Source: a virus | Virus record (IMG/VR): IMGVR_UViG_3300028925_000911 | Span: 1 to 26,520 of that record | Direction: 5' to 3' (one strand) | DNA: 26,520 bases | Part shown: one piece after another, positions 6,140 through 22,061 of the stretch | How the letters are laid out: the number at the start of each line of letters is the position of its first letter | Position numbering within the stretch: the first letter of the stretch is position 1 | The notes under the pieces: generated by a model | Database searches by the model: none | What the model was told of the DNA's origin: nothing | What the model saw: the letters and a program-made list of their open reading frames with translations, nothing else | Position numbers and translations under genes: made by a program

Positions 6140-6337
6140 ATGGACATGTTCCAAGAAATTAAAGAAGCTTTTTCTGAGCAGCAGGAAAAATTAAAAGTTT
6201 TGCTTGCAACAGGACAGGTGGAAGACTATAACCAATATAAGCAATTGGTGGGGACTATCTCAGGAATTGAGTGGGCTTCCGTAGAACTAGGACGTATTAT
6301 CAACAATAGAATGGAGAGAGAAGACAGCTATGATTAA
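6140..6337 (+). CDS. 65-residue helical small protein of unknown function
   Basis: The ORF encodes MDMFQEIKEAFSEQQEKLKV followed by 'TGQVEDYNQYKQLVGTISGIEW', an all-helical, acidic-to-neutral protein without membrane segments. I do not recognise a family with a known function, although short proteins of this style, with a 'Y..YK.LVG...G' segment, recur near phage head genes. There is no clear Shine-Dalgarno; a second ATG at 6146 is an alternative start. Its stop lies 8 bp inside the GroES gene, so the two are probably translationally coupled. Confidence 0.7.
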   Translation: MDMFQEIKEAFSEQQEKLKVLLATGQVEDYNQYKQLVGTISGIEWASVELGRIINNRMEREDSYD

Positions 6338-6746
6338 TCCTCAACTAGGCGGGGCTATTACTAATGATGCGTGGATTACAAAGAATGATGTACCGGACCC
6401 AGAGGTTCTTCCAGACCTTCCCGGTTATCATGTTCTTGTCAGACCAACCTCTATCAAAGAAAAAACAAAAGGAGGTATCCTACTACCAGAGAAAGCCAGA
6501 GATGATATTGCCTATCTCACCACTGTTGGCAGAGTTCTTAAAGTAGGAACGCTGGCTTACGAAGACTCAGCTAAGTTTCTTGCTGGAGCCTGGTGCAGAG
6601 AAGGCGACTACGTCTGCTACCAGAAGCTCACAGGTACCAAGTTTGTCTACAAAGGGGTAAAGCTCCTTCTTATTTTTGATGATCAGGTCCTGATGAGAAT
6701 CTCTGACCCAGAAGATTTAGACACTACACTTGTATTAGGTAACTAA
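6330..6746 (+). CDS. GroES-like co-chaperonin
   Basis: This 138-residue protein carries the Cpn10 fold. 'GYHVLVRPTSIKEKTKGGILLPEKA' (residues 32-56) matches the GroES strand plus mobile loop, including the Gly-Gly-Ile-Leu-Leu (48-52) that docks on GroEL. It is followed by 'VGRVLKVG', 'REGDYVCYQKLTGTKF', and the C-terminal strand 'KLLLIFDDQVLMRI'. Bacterial GroES is about 97 residues; the extra length is an N-terminal arm of about 30 residues and a short acidic tail. Phage co-chaperonins such as T4 gp31 replace GroES to fold large capsid proteins, and this gene sits directly ahead of the capsid module. No GroEL is encoded in the window, so it would work with the host chaperonin. A GGAGAG ribosome site lies within the overlapping upstream gene. 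Confidence 0.9.
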   Translation: MINPQLGGAITNDAWITKNDVPDPEVLPDLPGYHVLVRPTSIKEKTKGGILLPEKARDDIAYLTTVGRVLKVGTLAYEDSAKFLAGAWCREGDYVCYQKLTGTKFVYKGVKLLLIFDDQVLMRISDPEDLDTTLVLGN

Positions 6747-11126: not shown

Positions 11127-11780
11127 GTGGATTTTAATTCTCTTGTCAGCATCATCATAGAAACTACTGAGAACGATGGCTCAGAGTTTGTAGGTGCTCT
11201 CCCTGCCATGATACAGAGAGCACAGGAGAAGATGCAGAATGATCTGGATGATCAGGGTCTGGTTACCTATGCCAGTGTAGCTGTATCAGCTTCCTCTGCA
11301 GAGGTATCTGTACCTGTGGGAGGAGAGATCATCAAGACGTTCTCCATAGAAGTAGGAGGTTCCAGGACACAGCTGAAGCACAGACCCTATGAATACCTGC
11401 TGGACTACTGGCCTGTGTCAGCCTCCACTGGTACACCTAGGTACTATGGCTTTAAGACTAACACAGAGATCAGAGTAGCTCCCACGCCTTCTGCCACGGT
11501 AGATTCTCAGATAGGTTTTATTGCACAGATTACAACTATTACATCTGCCAGTCCTACAAACTACTTTACCATTCACTGTGAGAACGCGCTGTTCTATTCT
11601 TCTATGATAGAGGCTTCTCTCTTTATGAAGAGCTTTAACACAACGGCGGCGTGGCAACAGGAGTACCAAGGTGAAATAGAAAGGCTTAGAAATAGAGCCA
11701 GAAGAAGTAGGCAAGATGATATGCAGACAAGTTTCAGCACTGCCGGTGGTCCTAATACACTGGTCAAGGGGAGTGACTAG
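11127..11780 (+). CDS. Probable head-tail adaptor/connector protein
   Basis: This 217-residue protein opens with a helical domain ('LVSIIIETTENDG', 'LPAMIQRAQEKMQNDLDDQG') and continues with strands. 'RTQLKHRPYEYLLDYWP' and 'GTPRYYGFKTNTEIRVAPTP' follow, and it ends in a helix-rich tail ('EYQGEIERLRNRARRSR'). I recall this order from phage adaptor proteins (gp6/tail-tube-A-like) that seat on the portal and close the head after packaging. It starts with GTG; AGGAG at 11115-11119 fixes that choice. A second connector candidate, P22 gp4-like, lies at 14051, so two rings may be stacked between portal and tail. Confidence 0.65.
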   Translation: MDFNSLVSIIIETTENDGSEFVGALPAMIQRAQEKMQNDLDDQGLVTYASVAVSASSAEVSVPVGGEIIKTFSIEVGGSRTQLKHRPYEYLLDYWPVSASTGTPRYYGFKTNTEIRVAPTPSATVDSQIGFIAQITTITSASPTNYFTIHCENALFYSSMIEASLFMKSFNTTAAWQQEYQGEIERLRNRARRSRQDDMQTSFSTAGGPNTLVKGSD

Positions 11781-12997: not shown

Positions 12998-13249
12998 ATG
13001 CCAATGAACTATATGAATGCCAAGAAGAGAGGCTTAGTTAAACTTAAAGCAGGTGGGCCTGTAGACAGCGGAGGTGCGGTTGAACATCTGGCCTCTATTC
13101 AGGATGAACTTGCTTCAGATAATCCTAACAAGGACAATATAGCTTTTTCTAAGGCTGCTTTAAAAAGAGCTTCAAAAGCAGATAAAGCAAAAGCTAGAAA
13201 AATTTTAAACTCTTCTGGTCTATATGATATGGACAAAGGAAACAGGTAA
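12998..13249 (+). CDS. 83-residue basic small protein, MPMNYMN paralogue 1
   Basis: The protein starts MPMNYMNAKKRGLVKLKAGG and continues into a charged helical region ('KAALKRASKADKAKARKIL'). It has no membrane segment or known domain. The first 33 bp match the start of the next gene (13261) at 32 positions, so the pair arose by duplication of at least the 5' end. The rest of the proteins differ. The Tyr-x-Asn...Lys-Lys motif followed by 'KAGG' also appears, loosely, in the 51-residue protein at 14744 and the 60-residue one at 13862. Function unknown. Confidence 0.75.
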   Translation: MPMNYMNAKKRGLVKLKAGGPVDSGGAVEHLASIQDELASDNPNKDNIAFSKAALKRASKADKAKARKILNSSGLYDMDKGNR

Positions 13250-13260
13250 GGAACTTAGAT

Positions 13261-13455
13261 ATGCCAATGAACTATATGAATGACAAGAAGAGAAAACTTA
13301 AAAAAGGAGGGAAGGTTGGAAAGGGAGGTAACAAAGAAGACTACCTTATTCCTGATCAGAACCCTCCCGTGGACTCTGAAAAATTAAACGCCTTCAACGG
13401 TAAGCCCACAGGTCAGGGCTACGGTGCAGCTAGAATAGGACCGGACGTTGTCTAA
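13261..13455 (+). CDS. 64-residue basic small protein, MPMNYMN paralogue 2
   Basis: It begins MPMNYMNDKKRKLKKGGKVG, nearly identical in its first 11 codons to the gene at 12998, then diverges into a Gly/Lys/Asp/Pro-rich segment ending 'GQGYGAARIGPDVV'. No domain is recognised. 'TAAGGAAC' between the two genes provides a ribosome site. Its last 8 bp are shared with the start of the Cys-rich ORF at 13448. The repeated N-terminus may be a targeting or binding tag; this is speculation. Confidence 0.72.
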   Translation: MPMNYMNDKKRKLKKGGKVGKGGNKEDYLIPDQNPPVDSEKLNAFNGKPTGQGYGAARIGPDVV

Positions 13456-13567
13456 GGAACAAGAGAAAAGGTGTTCTAATCCTTCTTGTCAGTGTACAGG
13501 TTGTAAAGATTGTTCAAGCACCAACGAAGGAGGTTGTTCTTGTAATCCAGTTCCCTCAGAGGAATAG
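13448..13567 (+). CDS. 39-residue, 7-cysteine mini-protein (metallothionein- or zinc-ribbon-like)
   Basis: The only ORF in the 13456-13583 gap starts at TTG 13448, overlaps the end of the upstream gene by 8 bp, and has AGGA 7 bp before it. The product is about 39 residues with Cys at 9, 14, 16, 19, 22, 30 and 32. The core 'CSNPSCQCTGCKDC' and the later 'GGCSCN' give a C-x4-C-x-C-x2-C-x2-C-x7-C-x-C array. Clustered C-x-C and C-x2-C spacing is the hallmark of metallothioneins and small metal-binding proteins, so metal binding is likely if it is made. No ATG or GTG exists in this frame, so expression rests on a TTG start, a codon this phage appears to use at 23177. Function in the phage is unknown. 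Confidence 0.55.
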   Translation: MSKEQEKRCSNPSCQCTGCKDCSSTNEGGCSCNPVPSEE

Positions 13568-13583: not shown

Positions 13584-13862
13584 ATGGTGGAAGACTTTAG
13601 TGTATTTCAAGCTGTATCAGATTACGGGCTTGCCATAGTTGCCACCATAGGAGCAGGTGCAGCAGCTTGGAAGCTTCTCCATTTTATGCTCAAGGATGTA
13701 GCGGGGGCCTTAAAAGGTCAAGCTGAAATTATAATTTCTCTGATAGATAAGAGCAGTAGAGTAGAAACTCTGGTACAGAGAATGGATTCTAAGCTAGACA
13801 CAGTTCTACAGCAACGCTCAGAACCACTGCTAAAGGAAATAAAAGAAAGGTACCGTCCCTGA
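13584..13862 (+). CDS. Small membrane protein, putative holin
   Basis: The 92-residue product has one hydrophobic segment near the N-terminus (about 14-36, 'YGLAIVATIGAGAAAWKLLH'). A long amphipathic helix with coiled-coil character follows ('SSRVETLVQRMDSKLDTVL') and the tail is charged. A single TM segment followed by a cytoplasmic coiled coil is found in class III-like holins and in many marine-phage proteins labelled holin, but also in other inner-membrane proteins. AAAGGAAA precedes the ATG. The stop overlaps the next start as TGATG. No endolysin gene adjoins it, so the holin call is tentative. Confidence 0.6.
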   Translation: MVEDFSVFQAVSDYGLAIVATIGAGAAAWKLLHFMLKDVAGALKGQAEIIISLIDKSSRVETLVQRMDSKLDTVLQQRSEPLLKEIKERYRP

Positions 13863-14050: not shown

Positions 14051-14740
14051 ATGGCAATTGCAACCACATCTAATTTTGACACCACCTTCTTTATAGACGA
14101 GGTTATAGAAGAAGCCTATGCCATGATAGGTGGTCAGGCAGAGCTTGCCAATGATTCTATCACTGCCAGGAGATCACTTAACCTGATGCTGACAGACTGG
14201 CAGAACCGTGGTGTTCTCCTCTGGGGTACAGACCTGGCCAGCACCACACTGGTCACAGGAACAGCAGAGTATGCTCTCCCTGCAGAGACCGTGGACGTGC
14301 TCTCTGGGTACATCAGACTCACCTCCAATAGCAATGACTTTCAAATGAACCGTATAGGGTATGAGGAATACGAGGCTATCACCAATAAGACTACCTCTGG
14401 TAGGCCCACACAGTTTGCCACTCTCAGAGGCAGAGAAGTAGTCACAGCCTTCTTCTTCCCTGTTCCTGATGCAGCAGATACTTATACTTTTAGAAACTAC
14501 AGAATGAAAAGACTGGCAGACGTTAGTAAGAGTGCTCTCCAGAATGCAGACATCCCTTTCAGATTTCTTCCTGCTCTGACCTGTGGGCTTGCCTACTACC
14601 TCAGTTATAAGAGAGCAGGCGTCCCTGCAGAAAGAATTGTTGTTCTTAAAGCCAAGTACGAAGAACTCTTAGAGAGCGCACTAGACGCAGATAGAAACAG
14701 AGTGAGCCTCTTCATCACTCCTAGATTACAGGTGGTATAG
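14051..14740 (+). CDS. P22 gp4-like head-to-tail connector (tail accessory factor)
   Basis: The 229-residue protein fits the P22 gp4 family. There is an N-terminal helical domain ('FIDEVIEEAYAMIGGQAELA', 'ARRSLNLMLTDWQNRG', 'LLWG'), then 'GTAEYALPAETVDVLSGYIR', a strand region ('GREVVTAFFFPVPDAADTYT'), and a helical end ('FLPALTCGLAYYLSYKRAG'). Proteins of this kind bind the bottom of the portal ring after packaging and form the platform for the tail. Together with the gp10-like protein at 23177 it supports a short-tailed virion. Shine-Dalgarno is modest (GAGGAATAGG). Confidence 0.8.
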   Translation: MAIATTSNFDTTFFIDEVIEEAYAMIGGQAELANDSITARRSLNLMLTDWQNRGVLLWGTDLASTTLVTGTAEYALPAETVDVLSGYIRLTSNSNDFQMNRIGYEEYEAITNKTTSGRPTQFATLRGREVVTAFFFPVPDAADTYTFRNYRMKRLADVSKSALQNADIPFRFLPALTCGLAYYLSYKRAGVPAERIVVLKAKYEELLESALDADRNRVSLFITPRLQVV

Positions 14741-21665: not shown

Positions 21666-22061
21666 ATGAGATTTTTAAAGTATCTTATCCTTGGCCTTGT
21701 TCTTAGCACACTACCCGCATGTGTTACTGCTCAAGATTCTAAAGTAACTTGGGCAAAGGGTGATATTGTAGCATCTTTTTATGTATGTAGAACAGAGAAA
21801 GATATAATGGAAGTTGCCCTGGCAGATACTAAAGGAGGACACACGCTACGTCAAAGTGTTTTTAGAAAGACCGTAGCACAAGATTGTATAAATTTAAACC
21901 CTCCTCTAAGTTTTATAGTACAACAGGTTATTGGAAGCTACACAGATTCTAATAAGAAAGAAACAAGTATTCTTGCTGTTTCAGTACCTGATAAAGAAAA
22001 AACTGCTGGTTATGTTATTTCCATAGGTAAGCCGCTTATTGCCAAAGAGATGACTTACTAG
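21666..22061 (+). CDS. Putative lipoprotein / exported small protein
   Basis: The 131-residue product starts with a clear signal sequence: 'MRFLKYLILGLVLS', then 'TLPACVTAQDS'. Leu-Pro-Ala-Cys (16-19) resembles a lipobox, which would lipidate Cys19; cleavage by signal peptidase I after 'VTA' is the alternative. The mature part is beta-rich with two more Cys ('FYVCRTEKD', 'AQDCINLN') that could form a disulphide in the periplasm. It lies between the receptor-binding fibre region and a holin-like gene. Options are a superinfection-exclusion lipoprotein (like T5 Llp beside its receptor-binding gene), an outer-membrane lysis protein, or an envelope protein of unknown use. It is not Pro-rich like most o-spanins. 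The ribosome site is weak. Confidence 0.75.
   Translation: MRFLKYLILGLVLSTLPACVTAQDSKVTWAKGDIVASFYVCRTEKDIMEVALADTKGGHTLRQSVFRKTVAQDCINLNPPLSFIVQQVIGSYTDSNKKETSILAVSVPDKEKTAGYVISIGKPLIAKEMTY

Follow-up and report, generated by a model that had tools for sequence, protein, structure and literature searches.

Does the gap between two small genes in a podovirus-like phage genome hold a gene of its own, and if so, is its product a phage metallothionein? The window analysed here, a stretch of 26,520 nucleotides, is a 26.5-kb phage record (IMG/VR record IMGVR_UViG_3300028925_000911) with genes for terminase, portal, lysozyme, GroES and capsid and two SU10-type adaptor genes. Judged by single proteins, its nearest cultured relatives are the pelagiphages HTVC023P and HTVC027P, the Roseobacter phages CRP-901/902, Planktothrix phages and DSL-LC04. 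The two SU10-adaptor-like genes (PF24175) differ from one another and belong to one late cluster, and the co-chaperonin, which is GroES-like (PF00166), is phage-encoded (Table 1).

The gap lies in the head-tail gene cluster, where the original prediction had noted a TTG-started frame of 39 codons as a possible hidden phage metallothionein. The anatomy it described is all present in the sequence: seven Cys in the spacing C-x4-C-x-C-x2-C-x2-C-x7-C-x-C, an AGGA at suitable distance, an 8-bp overlap and an otherwise empty gap, which the frame fills, as the upstream ORF runs 8 bp into it and the next gene begins shortly beyond its stop. The mini-protein, read from the window as (TTG)SKEQEKRCSNPSCQCTGCKDCSSTNEGGCSCNPVPSEE, has 39 aa, 18% of them Cys, and is devoid of F, W and Y. 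Elsewhere in the window's proteins Cys accounts for 36 of 8271 residues (0.44%), a frequency at which at least seven Cys in 24 residues has a binomial p of ~1e-11. That standard gene callers miss such a gene is better attributed to its shortness, as had been suggested, and to the overlap; the further appeal to its lack of ATG or GTG was overstated. Common gene callers include TTG among their permitted starts. The gene upstream adjoins another that also encodes a small Lys/Gly-rich protein, and the two share the N-terminus MPMNYMN(A/D)KKR, which suggests duplication.

Table 1. Coordinates of the mini-gene, its surroundings and other features mentioned in the text. Positions are those of the window unless a contig or accession is given.
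Feature	Position	Strand	Remarks
Metallothionein-like mini-protein gene (putative)	13448..13567	+	39 codons, TTG start, 7 Cys, TAG stop included; open and selected in 65/65 informative relatives
Shine-Dalgarno-like AGGA	13437..13440	+	7 nt before the mini-gene TTG
8-bp overlap of mini-gene start and upstream-gene stop	13448..13455	+	may allow coupled translation
Upstream 64-aa Lys/Gly-rich gene	13261..13455	+	some relatives with the mini-gene lack this gene or have other sequence in its place
Downstream 92-aa gene	13584..13862	+	single hydrophobic segment, then likely coiled coil; constant neighbour of the mini-gene in the window's phage group
Adjoining small Lys/Gly-rich gene	12998-13249
SU10-adaptor-like genes	11127-11780, 14051-14740
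GroES-like co-chaperonin gene	6330-6746
Secreted-looking protein, window	21666-22061
Secreted-looking protein, HMO-2011-type relative	L150:6918-7298	-
Site where the homologue overlaps or abuts a ~70-aa protein	L184:1641-1896		other frame
WMU93301.1 frame, Microcystis phage MaAM05 record	L446:1498-1719 = MW495066.1 111775-111996

Cys density alone does not settle whether this frame is a gene, because two further Cys-dense ORFs lie in other frames of the window. Dinucleotide shuffles of the window contain a mean of 0.05 ORFs per shuffle with at least 30 aa and at least seven Cys in 24 aa; the unshuffled window contains three. What decides the matter is conservation. We gathered relatives in IMG/VR through two genes, that for the adaptor and the 92-aa gene downstream; in 65 of the 68 contigs with the latter the mini-gene lies directly upstream, while the remaining three (L042, L044, L069) start beyond its position. 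All 65 informative relatives keep the frame open; the original prediction had named frameshifts or stops in relatives as what would count against it, and it thus withstands this test. An apparent absence from one clade (L053, L054, L058-L061, L063-L065) was rejected, the gene being present there with His as its third Cys (CKNPNCGHEKCENCSCSEPCTAETCDC).

Among 42 distinct contexts, 39 start with TTG and three with ATG, and every one has a match of at least 4 nt to the Shine-Dalgarno consensus before the start codon; of the TTG triplets in these loci overall, 28% do. Conservation of the start is not merely a by-product of the overlap with a stop codon: the TTG persists in L013 and L035, where a larger gene ends in place of the upstream small genes, and L034/L084, L067/L096 and L068/L097 start with ATG and a strong Shine-Dalgarno sequence instead of TTG. 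We also considered the frame as a frameshift fusion to the upstream gene and rejected this; an in-frame TAG precedes the start in the window, and the contigs with their own ATG and strong Shine-Dalgarno sequence counter it as well.

Selection is sharpest at the Cys codons. On one tree of the downstream gene, comprising 33 distinct relatives after near-identical contigs had been collapsed, parsimony counts 25 substitutions in the seven codons for Cys that the relatives have in common with the window, all of them silent (TGT/TGC) and none at codon positions 1-2. The other mini-protein columns, with the first two omitted from the counts, changed 174 times at positions 1-2 and 144 times at position 3; for the 92-aa gene the same tree gives 172 and 356, respectively. 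Of the well-populated columns, all but the seven Cys and one Asn changed at least once at positions 1-2. Close pairs, pooled, yield a pN of 0.040 and a pS of 0.156, and the loops vary in sequence and, through indels, in length. Both the comparison of synonymous with nonsynonymous change and the pattern of conserved Cys with variable loops, which had been proposed as checks, therefore came out in favour of a coding frame. By these comparisons the mini-gene is a genuine phage gene, its Cys under selection and its loops free.

The gene also extends beyond the window's own phage group. Loose Cys-spacing scans of viral contigs mostly returned poly-Cys repeats and wrong-frame matches, and a stricter motif scan and a His scan were informative. 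Motif scans found a nine-Cys homologue (e.g. MEKSCTNPYCNCDGCKGCDCTYVCVNETCNCSKSSEDLNSSNDS) in L150, L179, L184, L271, L273 and L283, with 49% identity to the L068 protein (pairwise E 4e-10). Its carriers are HMO-2011-type podoviruses; the G004 terminase is 48-55% identical to those of HTVC115P, HTVC033P, CRP-603 and others. In these phages the homologue precedes the small terminase gene, a different genomic site and neighbourhood from those in the window group, and its neighbour is a relative of a secreted-looking protein that the window encodes elsewhere. By these scans two podovirus families have the mini-gene, each at its own site. This suggests that it passed from one to the other or reached both from a shared origin. 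The secreted-looking proteins themselves (126-131 aa; 33% identity, E 9e-17) have no family match. A ~70-aa protein with the look of a zinc ribbon (CxxC..CxxC) is encoded in a different frame so as to overlap or adjoin the homologue in HMO-2011-type phages, as in L184.

What the Cys might do is best approached through their variation. Relatives have 7, 8, 9 or 10, most of them 8, 9 or 10. An eighth Cys occurs in most relatives (CSNPSCQCTGCEDCSCTSEGGCSC), its position being occupied by Ser only in the window's own clade (L001, L004, L006); there are nine in a second group (CSNPNCSCTGCEDCSCTEPCNTETCDC) and ten in L062/L066. In the alignment the spacing over the first five Cys is exactly kept, the Pro and Thr-Gly near them are mostly kept, and one Asn is invariant. 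His can coordinate metal in place of Cys but cannot form a disulfide, so the His that replaces the third Cys throughout one clade favours metal binding over disulfides. Bacterial metallothioneins do mix Cys and His, the cluster of the Pseudomonas fluorescens protein being Zn3Cys9His (PMC7387436). This Cys-to-His swap is the best evidence in the sequence and argues, if indirectly, for metal binding.

In its general properties the mini-protein resembles the metallothionein class: it is smaller than 10 kDa, high in Cys, has Cys-x-Cys and Cys-x2-Cys motifs and few aromatics, and shows purifying selection on Cys with variable loops. It is like SmtA/BmtA (PF02069; 1JJD, 6GRV, 6GV6, 6GV7) in small size, in having about 9-10 Cys, in the presence of both kinds of Cys pair, and in a putative metal cluster of Cys and His. 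The phage protein is, however, shorter (38-45 aa), without YCSxxC and without profile or pairwise similarity, and its gene has no adjoining SmtB-type regulator and sits among head and tail genes. The mini-protein family profile (A1) recovered no solved metallothionein from the PDB library, the four PF02069-type structures included, whereas an SmtA query (its sequence confirmed by the match to 1JJD) found all four in the same library. Alignment of the family with SmtA by hhalign gave a probability of 1.3%, and the central Y-C-S-x2-C segment of SmtA is absent from all members. Since the profile, pairwise and motif tests failed, we do not file the mini-protein under the bacterial metallothionein family. 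The original prediction of a phage metallothionein thus stands as a functional analogy, based on the Cys/loop pattern and the Cys-to-His swap, and falls as regards membership of a known bacterial family; the mini-protein is best described, on present sequences, as a new metallothionein-like family of marine phages.

Other small metallothioneins offer looser parallels. The Neurospora copper metallothionein, with 25 residues and seven Cys in ~24 of them, has Cys-x-Cys pairs like the phage protein, at a spacing that differs and does not indicate homology. MymT of Mycobacterium tuberculosis is a copper metallothionein (PMC7387436); compared by description, the likeness lies in a short, Cys-rich, copper-binding bacterial protein, which in the case of MymT is cellular. 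A metallothionein-related frame does occur in one deposited phage record, that of Microcystis phage MaAM05, where the hypothetical protein WMU93301.1 is a relative of SmtA (44% identity, E 2e-5). It is of the SmtA type and not of the mini-protein family, and it may be of bacterial origin (contamination), because the 274-kb record has bacterial-looking genes.

The mini-protein family is invisible to the family libraries. Six members had no match to PF02069 in Pfam at E<=10 (and one chance match to any Pfam family, E 1.5), five had none in NCBIfam, members had none in PHROGs, and no zinc-finger family was matched in Pfam or NCBIfam. Isolate phages gave no credible match: a profile search of HTVC023P, CRP-901 and DSL-LC04 returned nothing, in a search run without a positive control using a profile that works on virus records, and the mini-gene was not found around the terminase genes, the sole region scanned, of HTVC033P, CRP-603 and HTVC115P. 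G007 and G008, two records at a greater distance, had no profile match, and plasmids had matches of E ~10 only. Scanning 84,980 prokaryote genomes with one strict fixed-spacing DNA motif yielded no convincing cellular copy, the 14 matches reading as stops, repeats or short unrelated frames; as the scan used a single fixed spacing, there may be cellular relatives with other Cys spacing. Searches of the open-licence literature turned up no phage metallothionein, and the papers on HTVC023P-type and HMO-2011-type genomes make no mention of metallothionein.

We favour, with a probability of about 0.7, a cytoplasmic metallothionein-like mini-protein with a metal cluster, late or coupled expression and a role in buffering or sequestering metal. 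Ribosomes finishing the upstream gene would probably restart at the overlapping TTG, and the mini-protein would be made together with head and tail proteins, probably late. Its 7-10 Cys (one of them His in one clade), on a loop-only chain of ~38-45 residues, would fold around a small thiophilic metal cluster, most likely of Zn(II) or Cu(I), and folding may occur only upon binding of a small number of Zn(II) ions or of a Cu(I) cluster. In the infected cell the protein would probably buffer or sequester such metal. By inspection, the mini-protein has no signal peptide or N-terminal hydrophobic segment, so its thiols would face the reducing cytoplasm. An AlphaFold model of low confidence (pLDDT 59, no secondary structure elements) is weakly consistent with a metal-free metallothionein, and no metal-responsive regulator was noticed beside the mini-gene. 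We take metal binding to be strongly implied and infer zinc or copper buffering; that the protein would work like a metallothionein is, as an analogy, well supported. A role in binding virion metal, also raised in the original prediction, has found no support so far.

With loops that vary and only the Cys and one Asn fixed, function most likely resides in a metal-thiolate core and not in partner recognition. Strict conservation of the Asn and looser conservation of the Pro and Thr-Gly could nevertheless point to a specific fold or partner instead of a plain buffer. Around the first five Cys, these residues would suit a small structural zinc-binding protein, zinc-finger-like, whose metal site holds a fold that binds a host regulator, the 92-aa membrane-type protein or DNA; so would the constancy of the 92-aa gene as a neighbour in the window's phage group. 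We regard such a protein as unlikely, since non-Cys positions change freely, the loops gain and lose residues and Cys, a Cys number of 7-10 does not amount to a fixed ligand set, no zinc-finger family was matched, and the neighbourhood differs in HMO-2011-type phages. It is improbable, too, that the Cys mainly scavenge oxidants or Cu(I) during infection, as in a thiol redox or copper-defence protein for which metal buffering would be secondary. Metallothioneins are able to scavenge reactive oxygen species (PMC7387436), and the strictly kept residues are, besides one Asn, Cys alone; but a kept His in place of Cys is more readily explained by metal coordination than by redox chemistry, and the exact spacing of the first five Cys suggests cluster geometry.

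The location amid head and tail genes would fit a disulfide-rich structural or exported peptide, for example a small virion knob. That is very improbable for a protein without a signal peptide, in which Cys numbers can be odd (7, 9), a Cys changes to His and the loop variation is extreme for a structural part. As for a chance open frame without protein function, the short length, the TTG start, the partial overlap with another gene and the occurrence of Cys-dense chance frames in the window all agree with one, and yet the conservation data already contradict it and leave it next to no credence: the frame is open in every informative relative, its seven Cys codons change silently only, its start and Shine-Dalgarno sequence outlast the loss of the upstream gene, and a homologue exists in a second phage family.

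The metallothionein-like reading has a broader form, which we hold tentatively and at somewhat less than even odds: that this is a phage-specific family, not yet seen in cells and a fixed gene of a marine podovirus group, spread over two families, through which phages manage their own zinc or copper. At this length the peptide can be synthesised for a direct test of metal binding. In the open literature, phage-encoded metallothioneins seem to be essentially undescribed, and here a gene of 39 residues is universal in its phage group under very sharp selection on Cys, an indication that short non-ATG genes can conceal testable biology. If the metallothionein-like reading is true, a dedicated phage protein handles zinc or copper that is freed or needed during infection, and metal handling would join the infection programme of some marine podoviruses.
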